From a virus, in the IMG/VR virus record IMGVR_UViG_3300027973_000239, positions 1 through 22,220 of that record: a DNA stretch of 22,220 nucleotides; one strand, written 5' to 3'. The position numbers and the translations under genes were made by a program. A model generated the notes under the pieces. It ran no database searches. It saw only the letters and a program-made list of their open reading frames with translations, and was not told where the DNA came from. Shown here piece after piece: positions 5,026 to 14,046 of the stretch. Each line of letters starts with the position of its first letter. Within the stretch, counting starts at the first letter, position 1.

Positions 5026-5664
5026 ATGGCATATTTAAATTCAAACATTCCTACTATAACTTGTTTTATAAGAAATGAATTCTTATTTAATAATGAACAG
5101 GGTCACGGTGAGCATACTTTAGCTGACGTGCATTCAGTTGCATCTATACAAAAGAGGGTGCCATTATTTGAAGCATTTTTAGAGAATGGAGTTAACTGGA
5201 CGAGAAGACCTATAAACGCATTTTGTTGGAAAAAAGACGCTGAGATTTTGCCACTTACAGAGCATGTGTATTGGGATTGTTTTTCTTCTTATATAGACGT
5301 GCAGGTAAGAGAAAGAATGTTTGGATTACGTGCAGATTTAATTTCTATAACAAAAGTTAAGAGGCAGGGTACATATATGTTTACCCTTGATTGGTCACAT
5401 GAAAATAGAAACATGTTAGACACTAACTTTTCTGAAACACCTGAGCATAAATGTGGTCACGTATTTAAAATGGATAATGGTAATTACTTTATCTATCCTA
5501 ATAATAGAATAATTTGGGCAGACAAGTCATGGACTTTTAATAGAATAGACAAGAACCCAGGATATAAAATTGACATGAACATATACTCAGTAGAGAATGA
5601 TAACCAATATGAAACTGATTATAGTTATATTACAGAGTTTAATGAAAATAAAGACAATGGCTGA
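5026..5664 (+). CDS. Conserved phage protein of unknown function (212 aa)
   Basis: Begins MAYLNSNIPTITCFIRNEFL and continues with GHGEHTLADVHSV, PINAFCWKKDAE, YMFTLDWSHENRN and HKCGHVFKMDNGNYFIYPNNR. I recognise this from many tailed phages, where it often sits next to the small basic DUF6321-like protein, as here; no function is known to me. The late CGHVF...NGNYFIYPNNRIIW stretch looks like beta strands, and the several His and Cys could bind a metal. The start at 5026 is chosen because a promoter box lies just upstream and because family members start MAYLN. The 3' end overlaps the next gene by eight bases, suggesting coupled translation. Confidence 0.8.
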   Translation: MAYLNSNIPTITCFIRNEFLFNNEQGHGEHTLADVHSVASIQKRVPLFEAFLENGVNWTRRPINAFCWKKDAEILPLTEHVYWDCFSSYIDVQVRERMFGLRADLISITKVKRQGTYMFTLDWSHENRNMLDTNFSETPEHKCGHVFKMDNGNYFIYPNNRIIWADKSWTFNRIDKNPGYKIDMNIYSVENDNQYETDYSYITEFNENKDNG

Positions 5665-5944
5665 ACAAAAAAAAATGAAGACTGCTGCGTGGACACGCAG
5701 TGCTGGTAAATCTAAGTCAGGTGGATTAAACGCTAAAGGCGTGGCGAGTTATAGAGCAGACAACCCTGGAAGCAAACTTAAGATGGCAGTAACTACTCCT
5801 CCATCTAAAATTAAACCAGGGAGCAAGGACGAAAAAAGAAGAAAAAGCTTTTGCGCTAGAATGTCTGGCATGCCAGGCCCTGCTAAAAAACCAAATGGTG
5901 AACCTACAAGAAAGACTCTTGCATTAAAAAAATGGAACTGTTAA
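5657..5944 (+). CDS. DUF6321-like small basic phage protein (95 aa)
   Basis: Starts MAEQKKMKTAAWTRSAGKSK and carries the family signatures WTRSAGKSKSGGLNAKG near the N-terminus and RRKSFCARMSGMPGP plus PTRKTLALKKWNC at the C-terminus. It is rich in Lys and Arg, so nucleic acid binding is plausible but unproven. The ATG at 5657 lies inside the last codons of the preceding gene (eight-base overlap); a longer in-frame upstream extension lies entirely in the previous gene and is unlikely to be translated. This is the last plus-strand gene before the convergent terminator region. Confidence 0.85.
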   Translation: MAEQKKMKTAAWTRSAGKSKSGGLNAKGVASYRADNPGSKLKMAVTTPPSKIKPGSKDEKRRKSFCARMSGMPGPAKKPNGEPTRKTLALKKWNC

Positions 5945-10786: not shown

Positions 10787-13138
10787 TTAAAAGTTTAGTT
10801 CTGTGTTCACATCTTTCTTGGCGATGAACTCTACCATCTTTCCCATTGCATTTCTAAATATCCTTGGCTTTTCTCCAAACTTAAAGTTACCATATGAGTC
10901 GAGCCACTTGTAGAACTTGTTGTGGGATATCTTGTATCGTCCATAGTTGCCGTAGTCAGGGTACTCACTAACAAAATTATTATATATGTTCTGACCTATC
11001 GTTATCGAACCAAGCCTTGTGTCTACATTGTCATCAGCCGTTACCCATTCCCAAAAGTCAGTGCTGGTCTCAGCGATAAACTTGCGTGTCTTTAGGTTCA
11101 TGAACTGACTCTTTATCAGTCCACTAGACAAATATGTCTGTATGTTCTGTATCATGTAGTTGTCAAACTTAGTCCACTCAACCTTGCTCCATCCAGAGAA
11201 CAGCATGTGACCAAACTCACTCTCAGGAGTAAATGATTTGTTGTAGTACTGCTTGAACTCTAGGTCCCACTTACGCCTCTCGAACGAGTTGCCTGCACCC
11301 TTGATCGCATAGTTTGTCGTTATGACAATCTTTGGTGCGTCCTCAAATGGGATGTGTATCTCGTCCTTGTTCTTCTTCTCTAGGGTTATGCCCTCTGTAA
11401 TTATACTGAACAACCTCTCGAAGTCAAAGTTTTTACTAACGTCATCGAATACTAATGTCTGAGTGTCTACCTGTACCCTTTGGTATGGGAAAGACTTCTG
11501 GAAGCTAAACCCCTTGCCATCTATTATAACCATCTTCTTCATGTGGCTGATAGATTTTACAAATATCCCCTTGCCCGTGCCACCCTCTGGGTTGTCACTG
11601 ATGACCTCGTCATTAAGTATCACAGCAGGACAATAGCTAGCTGGCTTGTGGCTGTGCATCAGGTATCCAAGCGTAGACTCCATCGACCTCATCCTCTCAG
11701 CACTACCACCAGATATGTTCTTGATGAAGGTATTGAACTCACATATATCGCTTGGCGATTTTATGAAGTTACGACCGATCTTCTGCTTTTCCCACACGTA
11801 TCCGTTCAGCTCCCTGTAGTCTATTATCTCCACATCGTCCTTGGTGACCTTTACGGCACAGTTGTTATAGTATATATACGAATCGTCTATCGTGTCTACC
11901 ATGAACATTGGCTCTACCTTTGACACATAGTTTAAGAACGTCTCTTGAAAGAACTTAGTGTTAATAGCAAAGAAGTTGTACACAGACATGTCGTCAATTC
12001 CAAGCAGGTACTCAAGAACAAAGTCCTTTATCACCTCCTCGTTTACGTCAGATATGGTGTTGTTAACCACCCTAACAAATACAAAGTTGTTAGACTCAGC
12101 TGGGTAGTACTTGTAGAACCCATTGATTCTCAGGTACTCCCTAAACAGGTGAGGAACCAGATCAATCTTGCCCTTGCTTGTCTTGGTCCAAAATGTATTG
12201 CTGTCAGCTGTCTCGATCAGGTAGTCAATAACGTCTACGCTATGATTGGCCTTGACCTCCTTCTCTGGTACACCCTTCTTAAGGTCGTTCTTTATGTTGG
12301 TTGTCTTGTCTATGTCCTCGTAGAACTTAGTCCCATGTGATGCAATGTTTCTATACGCTGACCACACGATCGTGCCTATCTCCTTCTCCATGTCCCCATC
12401 GTCATAAGACATCAACACAGACTTGGCCTCCTCTTGTGGTATACCAAACTCATTTAATGCTGACGCTAGGATGAACAGGTTGTTGTTTCTCTGTCCCTTG
12501 ACCATGCCGTAGCTCTTGTTCCACCATATGGTGAGCCTCCTTGTTATCTCGTTTGTGTCGTTTATAACGATCTTTGGCCTTACGTATGCAACGTCTGACG
12601 AGTCAGAGTCCATCTCTGTCCACGTAGACGACAGCTCATTTACGTAGATGTTCTCGTCATATGACTCGTAGCACACACGTGAAATATTTTTACAGCTGAC
12701 GTCGAACTCGTCACAATCATAATACTTTTTAAGTGCAGAGAAATACTTCTTGTGGTTCATCGGGTCCTTTGGTATGCTAACCAAGACCTTTAGTCCATCA
12801 CCAGATGGTGACGTGAACACACAGTAGCTGTACTTATCCTCCATTAGCATCTCCCTCTTGTTGTACAGGTCCTGCTCATTTTTAAATCCGTCAAAGTCTA
12901 TGCATATAAATCCGCTGTGCTCTATAATCGCATTGTCTGATCGCCTGCTGAATGTACCAGAGAAACATATCGCTGGTAATTTCTTCTTCTTTTCGTTCCT
13001 CTCGTCCTTGTTAGATGAGTTCCTTACATCCATCACCTTGTCCTTTGAGGCACCATTTCTTATTCTATCGATTGCCATTGAGACATCCTTGTAGAACGGC
13101 TCAGAGGTGTCGTTTATACTTCTGAAGTAAGTTATCAT
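10787..13138 (-). CDS. Primase-helicase: BT4734-type primase plus SF3-type NTPase (783 aa)
   Basis: The N-terminal domain (about 1-170) matches the BT4734-like primase fold: ICIDFDGF (D81, D83), TSPSGDGLKVLV (109-120) and ISRVCYESYD (152-161). Residues about 217-265 (NNNLFILASALNEFG to VWSAYRN) resemble a primase C-terminal linker domain. The C-terminal ATPase has Walker A PEGGTGKG (517-524), Walker B LVFDDV (562-567), ITTN (606-609) and an arginine pair (621-622), like D5/DUF5906 SF3 helicases. It should make primers and unwind at the fork. Start: ATG at 13138 forms an ATGA overlap with the upstream stop; an upstream in-frame extension to 13213 lies inside the previous gene and is unlikely. 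This domain pairing is typical of Bacteroidota phages and mobile elements. Confidence 0.92.
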   Translation of the reverse strand: MITYFRSINDTSEPFYKDVSMAIDRIRNGASKDKVMDVRNSSNKDERNEKKKKLPAICFSGTFSRRSDNAIIEHSGFICIDFDGFKNEQDLYNKREMLMEDKYSYCVFTSPSGDGLKVLVSIPKDPMNHKKYFSALKKYYDCDEFDVSCKNISRVCYESYDENIYVNELSSTWTEMDSDSSDVAYVRPKIVINDTNEITRRLTIWWNKSYGMVKGQRNNNLFILASALNEFGIPQEEAKSVLMSYDDGDMEKEIGTIVWSAYRNIASHGTKFYEDIDKTTNIKNDLKKGVPEKEVKANHSVDVIDYLIETADSNTFWTKTSKGKIDLVPHLFREYLRINGFYKYYPAESNNFVFVRVVNNTISDVNEEVIKDFVLEYLLGIDDMSVYNFFAINTKFFQETFLNYVSKVEPMFMVDTIDDSYIYYNNCAVKVTKDDVEIIDYRELNGYVWEKQKIGRNFIKSPSDICEFNTFIKNISGGSAERMRSMESTLGYLMHSHKPASYCPAVILNDEVISDNPEGGTGKGIFVKSISHMKKMVIIDGKGFSFQKSFPYQRVQVDTQTLVFDDVSKNFDFERLFSIITEGITLEKKNKDEIHIPFEDAPKIVITTNYAIKGAGNSFERRKWDLEFKQYYNKSFTPESEFGHMLFSGWSKVEWTKFDNYMIQNIQTYLSSGLIKSQFMNLKTRKFIAETSTDFWEWVTADDNVDTRLGSITIGQNIYNNFVSEYPDYGNYGRYKISHNKFYKWLDSYGNFKFGEKPRIFRNAMGKMVEFIAKKDVNTELNF

Positions 13139-13356
13139 TTGCTTAGTTCTTTTTTTAGCTTGGTTAGGTATAGTATGTTGTCCATCTGCTCCTCTATGGC
13201 GTGGTCTATCCACTCAGTGACAGACAAATCATCTCTGTCCATAGTGTTGTTATACTTCTTAATCCCCTTGATCGATCTTTCTTTGAATCGAAAAATTACA
13301 GAGTCGACTATAGTGTCAACCTGACCTTGTGTTGAGTTTGAATACCACATATACAT
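13135..13356 (-). CDS. Small helical phage protein, MazG-like motif (73 aa)
   Basis: Contains FRFKERSIKGIKKYNNTMDR followed by EWIDHAIEEQMDNILYLTKL. This pattern (Y-G/N-T-x-x-DDLS-x-x-EWIDHAxEExMD) is common in phages; the EEQMD part resembles half of the metal site of all-alpha NTP pyrophosphatases, but only one ExxD is clear, so enzymatic activity is doubtful. Alternative start at codon 3. Its stop overlaps the primase-helicase start (ATGA). It follows a strong terminator by about 28 bases with no promoter box between, so expression may depend on read-through. Confidence 0.75.
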   Translation of the reverse strand: MYMWYSNSTQGQVDTIVDSVIFRFKERSIKGIKKYNNTMDRDDLSVTEWIDHAIEEQMDNILYLTKLKKELSK

Positions 13357-13384
13357 TAAAATTAAATTGATTACTTAAAAAAGA

Positions 13385-13411
13385 GGGTAGGCCATCCATA
13401 ACTGCCTACCC
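13385..13411 (-). terminator. Intrinsic terminator or attenuator upstream of the primase block
   Basis: Perfect 8-bp stem GGGTAGGC / GCCTACCC with an 11-base loop. On the minus strand it is followed at once by TCTTTTTTAA, a good U-tract; on the plus strand by CAGAGTTTTT, a weaker one. It lies between the tRNA-like element and the start of the 73-aa gene at 13356. As no promoter follows it, it probably acts as an attenuator or only partly efficient terminator. Confidence 0.8.
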
Positions 13412-13468
13412 AGAGTTTTTCCAAAAATGGTTGGTTAACCACAGAACCCTAACTGTACCTATGAAGTG

Positions 13469-13522
13469 AAGTCGGGATAGGACTCGAACCCATGACCATG
13501 TGACCATCTCACATCCCGACTT
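13469..13522 (-). ncRNA. tRNA-like element lacking an anticodon arm
   Basis: The minus strand folds as a short tRNA: acceptor stem AGTCGGG / CCCGACT (9 bp if both flanking pairs count), a D-arm-like hairpin GTGAGATGGTCAC, a six-base link where the anticodon and variable arms should be, and a full T arm ATGGG-TTCGAGT-CCTAT. The T loop fits the TTCRANY consensus. The whole element is 54 bases, about 20 short of a real tRNA, and no CCA is encoded. The acceptor plus T arm gives a 12-bp helix, the minimal RNase P substrate. It may be a decayed tRNA or a functional processing/mimic element. It sits between the small membrane-protein gene and the terminator. Confidence 0.6.
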
Positions 13523-13528
13523 ATCAAC

Positions 13529-13702
13529 CTATTTCTTTTTCATCATACTATCTAACCAATGACCGATGAATACTGGCATAGATAGCCAGCCTAGAAGCAC
13601 GCACCATAATATGATGACGAACTTCCCAATCCTATTTGTTAGTGGATCATGTAGCACGCCAAACATAAATAAGGATGAAAATAAATAATAAAACAACAAC
13701 AT
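13529..13702 (-). CDS. Small membrane protein (57 aa)
   Basis: Reads MLLFYYLFSSLFMFGVLHDP then ...IGKFVIILWCVLLGWLSMPV and ends DSMMKKK. Two hydrophobic segments (about 2-17 and 28-47) and a basic C-terminus suggest two membrane passes. The ATG lies two bases after the stop of the SSB-like gene, pointing to coupled translation. Size and topology would fit a holin-like or envelope-acting protein, but its place between replication genes makes that uncertain; no family is recognised. Confidence 0.65.
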   Translation of the reverse strand: MLLFYYLFSSLFMFGVLHDPLTNRIGKFVIILWCVLLGWLSMPVFIGHWLDSMMKKK

Positions 13703-13704
13703 AA

Positions 13705-14046
13705 TTAAAAGGGTAAGTCTGCGTCAGTGTCGTTTGCATCACCTACAGCAATAGCTGGATCTGGCATCTTAGCCCCCTCTATCGCATCTACCCTCCATGC
13801 CTCTAAGTTGTTGAAGTACTTGCCTTGGTACTCACGTCCTCTGATACGAAAGCATACCTCGACCTCTTGACCCTCAGCGATCTGATCTAACTTTTCGCAG
13901 TTGTTCTGCGTCAGCTGAAATGAAATATCTTGTGGATACTTCTCGTCAGGCTCGTTCAATACGAACTCTCGCTTTTGGAACTTGTCCGTGATCTGAACCG
14001 TGTCATTGATCACCTTAATCACCCCCCTCATTTTAAAATCACTCAT
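13705..14046 (-). CDS. DUF3127-like single-stranded DNA-binding protein (113 aa)
   Basis: The body (MRGVIKVINDTVQITDKFQK, REFVLNEPDE, VEVCFRIRGREYQG, FNNLEAWRVDAIE) matches the DUF3127 OB-fold family of Bacteroidota and their phages. The C-terminus ends DTDADLPF, an acidic tip with terminal Phe like the DDDIPF tail by which SSB proteins recruit partners. It should coat ssDNA during replication and recombination. The start overlaps the upstream nuclease stop as ATGA, and the small membrane gene follows two bases after its stop. Confidence 0.9.
   Translation of the reverse strand: MSDFKMRGVIKVINDTVQITDKFQKREFVLNEPDEKYPQDISFQLTQNNCEKLDQIAEGQEVEVCFRIRGREYQGKYFNNLEAWRVDAIEGAKMPDPAIAVGDANDTDADLPF

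Follow-up and report, generated by a model that had tools for sequence, protein, structure and literature searches.

A tRNA-like element without an anticodon arm in a phage SSB operon, and a candidate class of phage mini-tRNAs

The 3′ untranslated region of a single-stranded DNA binding protein (SSB) operon in a viral contig holds, ahead of its terminator, a tRNA look-alike of 53 bases (minus strand, 13521-13469) from which, judged by its sequence, the anticodon arm is absent. We analyzed this element within the whole 22,220-nt stretch of IMG/VR record IMGVR_UViG_3300027973_000239 (hereafter the window). It is best explained as a genuine, selectively kept tRNA-like RNA minus only its anticodon arm, and similar elements found across viral contigs are best explained as recurrent 'mini-tRNAs', derived from the tRNA genes of phages, in which the acceptor stem, D arm, T arm and end signals persist. 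New relative to the initial annotation are this recurrent class, the cassette slot that the window element occupies and a second structured RNA that follows it.

Results

The window element keeps all tRNA arms except the anticodon arm

On the minus strand the element reads, in order, AGTCGGG, AT, GTGA-GATGG-TCAC, ATGGTC, ATGGG-TTCGAGT-CCTAT, CCCGACT and T (Table 1), so that the acceptor stem, D hairpin, T arm and six-base link in place of an anticodon arm, as first described, were all recovered in both sequence and fold. Acceptor pairing is complete (7/7; 13521-13515 with 13476-13470), with an optional eighth A-U pair between A at 13522 and T at 13469. The link resembles base 26 followed by a variable-loop-like xGGTC, and from its letters it looks as if the anticodon stem-loop alone had been excised. 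The feature that marks RNase P substrates, a 12-bp stack of acceptor and T stem (7 + 5 pairs) with a T loop (TTCGAGT), is present. Of the N73-C74 end, C74 is present and T73 is able to pair with A-1, so that the point of RNase P cleavage may be less sharply defined.

Table 1. Features of the element and its surroundings in the window
Feature	Position	Strand	Basis
Single-stranded DNA binding protein gene	13705..14046	-	PHROG 4932, E = 4e-27
Small upstream gene of 57 aa, its stop codon 7 nt from the element	13529..13702	-	ORF
Acceptor stem, 5′ strand, AGTCGGG	13515..13521	-	sequence, fold, CM alignment
D arm GTGA-GATGG-TCAC, GG kept in loop	13500..13512	-	sequence, fold
6-nt link ATGGTC replacing anticodon arm	13494..13499	-	sequence
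Canonical T arm ATGGG-TTCGAGT-CCTAT	13477..13493	-	sequence; two pairs differ in L007, pairing intact
Acceptor stem, 3′ strand, CCCGACT, with discriminator T73, then C74	13469..13476	-	sequence, CM alignment
Conserved pseudoknot RNA ending in terminator hairpin	13385..13456	-	covariation, 30 distinct sequences
P1 of pseudoknot RNA, ACAG/CTGT	13453-13456 with 13441-13444	-	covariation
PK1, from P1 loop, AGGGTT/AACTCT	13445-13450 with 13412-13417	-	covariation
P2, CCAA/TTGG	13431-13434 with 13421-13424	-	pairing kept in most rows
P2 loop CCAT kissing ATGG of terminator loop	13427-13430 with 13396-13399	-	covariation
Intrinsic terminator GGGTAGGC-AGTTATGGATG-GCCTACCC-TCTTTTTT	13377..13411	-	sequence; stem covaries
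Downstream gene, 73 aa, first ORF past terminator	13135..13356	-	ORF
Primase/helicase gene, query for finding relatives	10787..13213	-	PHROG 18375, E = 2e-30

The initial annotation expected no normal tRNA call, and ARAGORN was indeed silent on the window (0 tRNA genes, no tmRNA). Rfam at its own thresholds matched neither the element nor a tmRNA, and at a lax threshold its tRNA model (RF00005) scored the element at 17.6 bits, below the 29-bit gathering threshold. A canonical tRNA was rejected since, although the acceptor stem, D arm and T arm are present, the anticodon stem-loop is missing and both the tRNA finder and the Rfam threshold were failed; a tmRNA was rejected on the size of the element (53 nt) and the silence of ARAGORN and Rfam.

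The fold was modestly better than that of shuffled sequences (z = -2.1), and that of the relative L007 was better (z = -3.1). A scanner requiring a 7-bp acceptor, a 5-bp T stem and a T loop returned the element as the sole match in the whole window, three matches of 45-64 nt in 400 dinucleotide shuffles (8.9 Mb; ~0.0075 per window) and none of that length in a background of 777 kb, made up of viral contigs that are largely unrelated. The element also matched a covariance model (R1) trained solely on members of the class described below from unrelated phages, with no sequence of the window's phage group included: it scored 31.6 bits (E = 2.2e-9; second-best site in the window, E = 0.56), which places it in that class, and its relatives scored 16-42 bits.

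The element closes the SSB operon

Reading leftwards, the gene order is SSB, the 57-aa gene, the element, the structured RNA with its terminator, the 73-aa gene and the primase/helicase, with a gap of ~13 nt between the element and the structured RNA. The element had initially been placed before the primase operon as if in its leader, a placement that we correct here: it ends the SSB operon. No promoter was found ahead of it by a scan limited to sigma-70-type sites, which do not cover the Bacteroidota type; the same promoter and terminator scan overlooked the terminator at 13377-13411 because of its 8-nt loop limit. Similarity searches of phage records with the window locus gave no match, and those with the element plus the following RNA gave only short matches to T arms of ordinary tRNAs.

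A conserved pseudoknot RNA follows the element

Across 30 sequences of the downstream RNA, 96% of cells were paired and 15 pairs were changed on both sides, with a covariation score of 0.435 (0.18 when shuffled, at most 0.09 when slid). Covariation was seen in P1 and PK1, in the kissing contact and in the stem of the terminator. The RNA also occurs in L008, L010, L041, L050, L091 and others. Rfam at lax thresholds, run on the window locus and two array loci, held no family for it or for neighbouring RNAs, and its pattern had no match in bacterial genomes; a second, looser pattern gave mostly chance matches, and these chance loci were reused as background. An HDV-like or theta ribozyme was rejected as its identity, there being no Rfam HDV match even at E = 10 and the pairing order being different. 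Since the pseudoknot RNA exists without the upstream tRNA-like neighbour in some contigs (L091, L109, L011-L023), it is an independent RNA to which the element is not essential.

Long non-coding stretches were also seen in relatives (L062 7250-8060, L010 3730-4550, L013 2850-3520, L041 3400-4050, L046 (-) 5390-5930), where two or three further conserved structured RNAs without Rfam match, e.g. AAAAACGCTGATGTTCGGCATCGAAGAGTG...AACTCAATAGGTTAAGCGT and GAAGTACAAGGGATCGTAGG...AAGTTGGCAACTCTTTCGGAC, alternate with tRNA-like elements. A motif, GCWTACCGTAAGATCWGCTC, lies in a hairpin upstream of tRNA-like elements (L026 11400, L041 3470, L052 (-) 1230, L044 2720) and is found in 52% relatives as well.

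The same slot holds intact, armless and remodelled tRNA-like cassettes

Relatives were located via the primase and via the pattern of the structured RNA. Beyond the window, the armless element was found in five close contigs (L001/L036, L005, L007, L022 and L032), and in five further contigs (L002, L003, L004, L006 and L040) that are 96-98% identical, the very same slot, flanked in the same way, holds an intact tRNA-Lys(UUU). Trees built from the flanking genes mix contigs that have tRNA-Lys with contigs that have the armless form: armless L005 groups with L004/L006, which carry tRNA-Lys, and L007, the outgroup at 90% identity, is armless. We therefore conclude that the slot swaps cassettes and that the window element is not simply a decayed copy of the neighbouring tRNA-Lys.

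The compensatory changes that the initial annotation had proposed looking for were found. Between the window and L007 two T-stem pairs are changed with pairing retained, and between the armless and tRNA-Lys alleles the entire D stem and a single acceptor pair differ, again with pairing retained; the wider class described below covaries too.

In 70% relatives the slot carries other armless tRNAs (L010, L021, L044 (twice), L046, L049, L067), tRNA-Tyr or tRNA-Arg, elements in which ~30-110 nt have been swapped in for the anticodon arm (L010, L013, L041, L043, L061, L062, L072), a form with only acceptor and T arm (L042, L073), one that is very short (L039, L052) or a plain acceptor-like hairpin with an N73-C74 end (L018, L046, L064, L068-L070, L080). 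Some loci alternate ncRNA, tRNA-like element, ncRNA, tRNA-like element and pseudoknot RNA.

Two of these forms can be described further. The elements of ~98-136 nt carry a structured domain for the anticodon arm (L061 (-) 2519, L062 7538, L041 3617, L013 3090, L043 (-) about 864, L026 11438), and the closing stem of the 136-nt form covaries (GCGAC/GTCGC vs ATGAC/GTCAT). The slot hairpin (L018 about 1287; also L046, L064, L068, L069, L070 and L080) has 10 bp, AGTCATGGTA-AGTTGAGTCA-TACCATGACT, followed by N73-C74, and its L068 version shows the paired changes GGTTATGGTA/TACCATAACC.

Elements without an anticodon arm recur across phages

Two gap patterns were scanned over the 2.9 million viral contigs of IMG/VR. 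Matches to the serine-type pattern came from 7 contigs, the window's phage group accounting for 6. The class I pattern, AGCTCAGNNGGN{8,22}GGTTCGANTCC, which demanded intact D and T arms and left acceptor pairing free, had at least 120 matches. Among the 120 listed, the acceptor was fully paired (7/7) in 64, comprising at least 47 distinct sequences; one mismatch was seen in 9, two in 5 and three to six in 42. This bimodal distribution is unlike steady decay. The links that stand where the anticodon arm belongs are mostly 8-9 nt long (e.g. CTTGGGTC, CATGGTGC, TTTAGGTC).

Structure was assessed on 43 class members, in an alignment whose acceptors had been prefiltered for pairing and whose outer T-stem pairs had not: 99.1% of positions were paired, with a covariation of 0.81 (0.15 when shuffled), and the acceptor and T stems were 99-100% paired with both-side changes at 10 pairs. 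At the outer pairs of the T stem, both sides were changed in 7, 20 and 25 sequences. One conserved core is joined to four acceptors that differ from each other yet pair completely (L197/L238/L296/L299), and two homologous armless elements (L234/L250) are set apart by a clean exchange of a G-C pair to A-U. A similar pattern had 57 matches in genomes of bacteria and archaea (257 Gb). Of the 30 that are unmasked, 22 have full pairing, and several are identical to viral ones.

The large ORFs adjoining class members encode terminases, endolysins, capsid, portal, DNA polymerase and helicase, the adjacency to terminases being no claim of association because the first proteins were partly chosen for terminase-like ends. 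Our guess that class members would lie beside integrases was wrong, the adjoining large ORFs being of these other kinds. In two Bacteroides contigs (L319, L349) an armless element is closely followed by another tRNA-like stretch of greater length (GTAGGACAGTAGC...GCTGGTTCGAATCCGGCCTGTTCTAC). Armless elements with an encoded CCA also lie near ordinary tRNA genes in L321 (Vibrio), L337 (Ruminococcus) and L357 (Bacillota), from which the armless form may not be confined to phages. A search of the openly licensed literature found no description of anticodon-arm-less phage tRNAs, which is weak evidence as most subscription papers lie outside such a search.

Class members retain the end signals of tRNAs

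End signals were counted in 57 acceptor-distinct class members. A73 was found in 32/57, C74 in 37/57 (p = 7e-12), A76 in 34/57, an encoded CCA in 8/57 (p = 8e-7) and T at -1 (U-1) in 23/57, and positions 77 and beyond were flat. Ordinary phage tRNAs from the same loci bear the same signature, more strongly. Such retention of end bases would be expected of an element that is still a substrate of tRNA end-processing enzymes. An ordinary tRNA lies within 1 kb on the same strand in 13/42 members, and a terminator-like hairpin lies within 150 nt downstream in 9/57, compared with 3.2% of random places.

Short and full-length forms share a locus in cultured phages

A 61-nt form, unannotated, is present in the Lactococcus phages P335, ul36, bIL286, bIL309, TP712, CAP and others, and at its locus the Lactococcus phages 49801, 98101 and D6890 carry a 74-nt tRNA-Met; these tRNA-Met and short forms are mostly unannotated. 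In the shortened form the D stem pairs anew, as TAGCT/AGCTA. In P335-type phages the element follows the lysin region, and in phage D4840 it lies between the amidase region and the repressor gene. A 58-nt element of the Polaribacter phages Danklef_1-5 bears the annotation 'tRNA-OTHER, Undet (NNN)'; R1 scores it at 74.4 bits, and it lies behind a terminator, 13 nt before a start codon. In elemoE, a cultured phage of Flavobacterium, a full tRNA-Met precedes the primase and is followed by another structured RNA and a T run.

Discussion

What the element does can be narrowed to a few readings, and we give about an even chance to its being a signal for tRNA maturation by RNase P and RNase Z through which the RNAs on either side are released. 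Within the long SSB-operon transcript, the element would fold into the top half of a tRNA; host RNase P would cut its 5′ edge near 13521/13522 and the tRNA 3′-end enzymes would cut after the discriminator base. These cuts would part the SSB mRNA from the pseudoknot RNA with its terminator, both would gain defined ends, and the freed RNAs could then be put to use. RNase P measures the stack of acceptor and T stem and requires the T loop, not the anticodon arm (PMC4919913). Because the class keeps what RNase P needs together with the D arm and the end bases, because the element lies between an mRNA and a terminated RNA, and because the cassettes alternate with structured RNAs, we favour processing. 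Against this reading count the pseudoknot RNAs that have no tRNA-like element upstream, the T73 of the window element with its possible A-1 partner, and the variety of class settings, with few terminators close downstream and the Danklef element 5′ of a gene.

Of the three readings first offered (an mRNA processing signal, a tRNA mimic that binds tRNA enzymes, or a decayed tRNA), processing thus fits best, on the strength of the kept end signals and the place 5′ of a terminator-ended RNA, with the cleavage itself a prediction. More broadly, it is plausible, at somewhat less than even likelihood, that the class is a widespread, undescribed functional RNA class, repeatedly evolved from phage tRNAs, and that in the window's group it punctuates transcripts together with related cassettes, host RNase P and RNase Z cutting out phage ncRNAs that include the terminator-kissing pseudoknot RNA.

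A free mini-tRNA acting in trans, processed, CCA-tailed, perhaps charged and occupying host tRNA-binding proteins, is a somewhat unlikely alternative. Its targets could perhaps be end-processing or modifying enzymes, EF-Tu, or an anticodon-cutting defence nuclease unable to cut the mini-tRNA. The entire tRNA elbow is kept (D-loop GG, TTCRA T loop), beyond the RNase P minimum; A76 and the encoded CCA are enriched; the genomic settings vary as they would for independent RNA genes; and the short forms alternate with intact tRNA-Lys here and with tRNA-Met in Lactococcus phages. However, the acceptor and discriminator bases differ so widely across the class that there is no shared aminoacylation identity.

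We consider it unlikely that the element is a tRNA gene on its way out, with recurrent deletions of the anticodon arm leaving functionless remnants that linger or are renewed by recombination. Descent from tRNAs, as the initial annotation allowed, is borne out by the full-length tRNA-Lys in the same slot of close relatives and by the shared place of tRNA-Met (49801, D6890) and the 61-nt form (P335, ul36, TP712) in Lactococcus phages, and our pattern, in demanding intact D and T arms, would favour fresh remnants. Random decay, however, is disfavoured by the survival of the pairing, T loop and ends: acceptor pairing was not demanded, yet complete acceptors prevail among the matches listed and only 14 have one or two mismatches. 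Paired changes separate homologous armless elements, the outgroup L007 carries the armless form just as close kin do, and in the shortened Lactococcus form the D stem has been restored by new pairs.

An attP fragment of a host tRNA gene serving integration is very improbable and was dropped: fragments of tRNAs do occur at the attP of temperate phages, annotation is known to be misled by such partial tRNAs (PMC9897764) and some Lactococcus members lie near a record end, but both acceptor strands are present and paired, tyrosine integrase (PF00589) is absent from nine long related records while control genomes were positive, and phage D4840 has no integrase in 3 kb around its element.

Significance of the class

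Explanations of phage tRNAs turn almost entirely on decoding, as a supply of codons or as rescue from anticodon nucleases. Elements that keep all but the decoding arm suggest selection on some further property of phage tRNAs. Annotation tools skip armless elements or call them 'tRNA-Undet', and the class has therefore been overlooked. Natural pairs of mini and full tRNAs at one site, in Flavobacterium-like and Lactococcus phages, make the matter testable in laboratory phages, P335, bIL286 and TP712 among them.

Comparison with known systems

The element resembles a canonical phage tRNA in its 7-bp acceptor, D arm, variable-loop-like GGTC, TTCRANT T loop and tendency to A73/C74/A76, and differs in that it has no anticodon arm and cannot decode. 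In MALAT1/mascRNA, MEN-beta and the gammaherpesvirus tRNA-like elements, a tRNA-like fold is cut by RNase P and 3′-end enzymes, which frees the flanking RNA; these signals are eukaryotic and retain a small anticodon-like stem-loop. The element has no such stem-loop, and comparable processing here is what we infer. The bacterial Y RNA YrlA likewise has a tRNA-like module and mimics tRNA without decoding; this reading was dropped, as TROVE/Ro60 (PF05731) is absent from nine long related records and there is no Rfam match. Stable RNA species 1 of phage T4 (rnaC), a stable RNA from the tRNA cluster of that phage, resembles the element in the canonical T arm that its 3′ end bears, but it is 139 nt long, only its T arm matches R1 (14 bits) and it has no clear 7-bp acceptor. 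Theta (HDV-like) ribozymes lie directly 3′ of phage tRNAs, whose ends they are proposed to shape, in phages of Bacteroidota hosts (PMC10879173). Like the pseudoknot RNA, they are structured RNAs 3′ of a phage tRNA or tRNA-like element, whereas here the RNA is an H-type pseudoknot with a kissing loop to its terminator.
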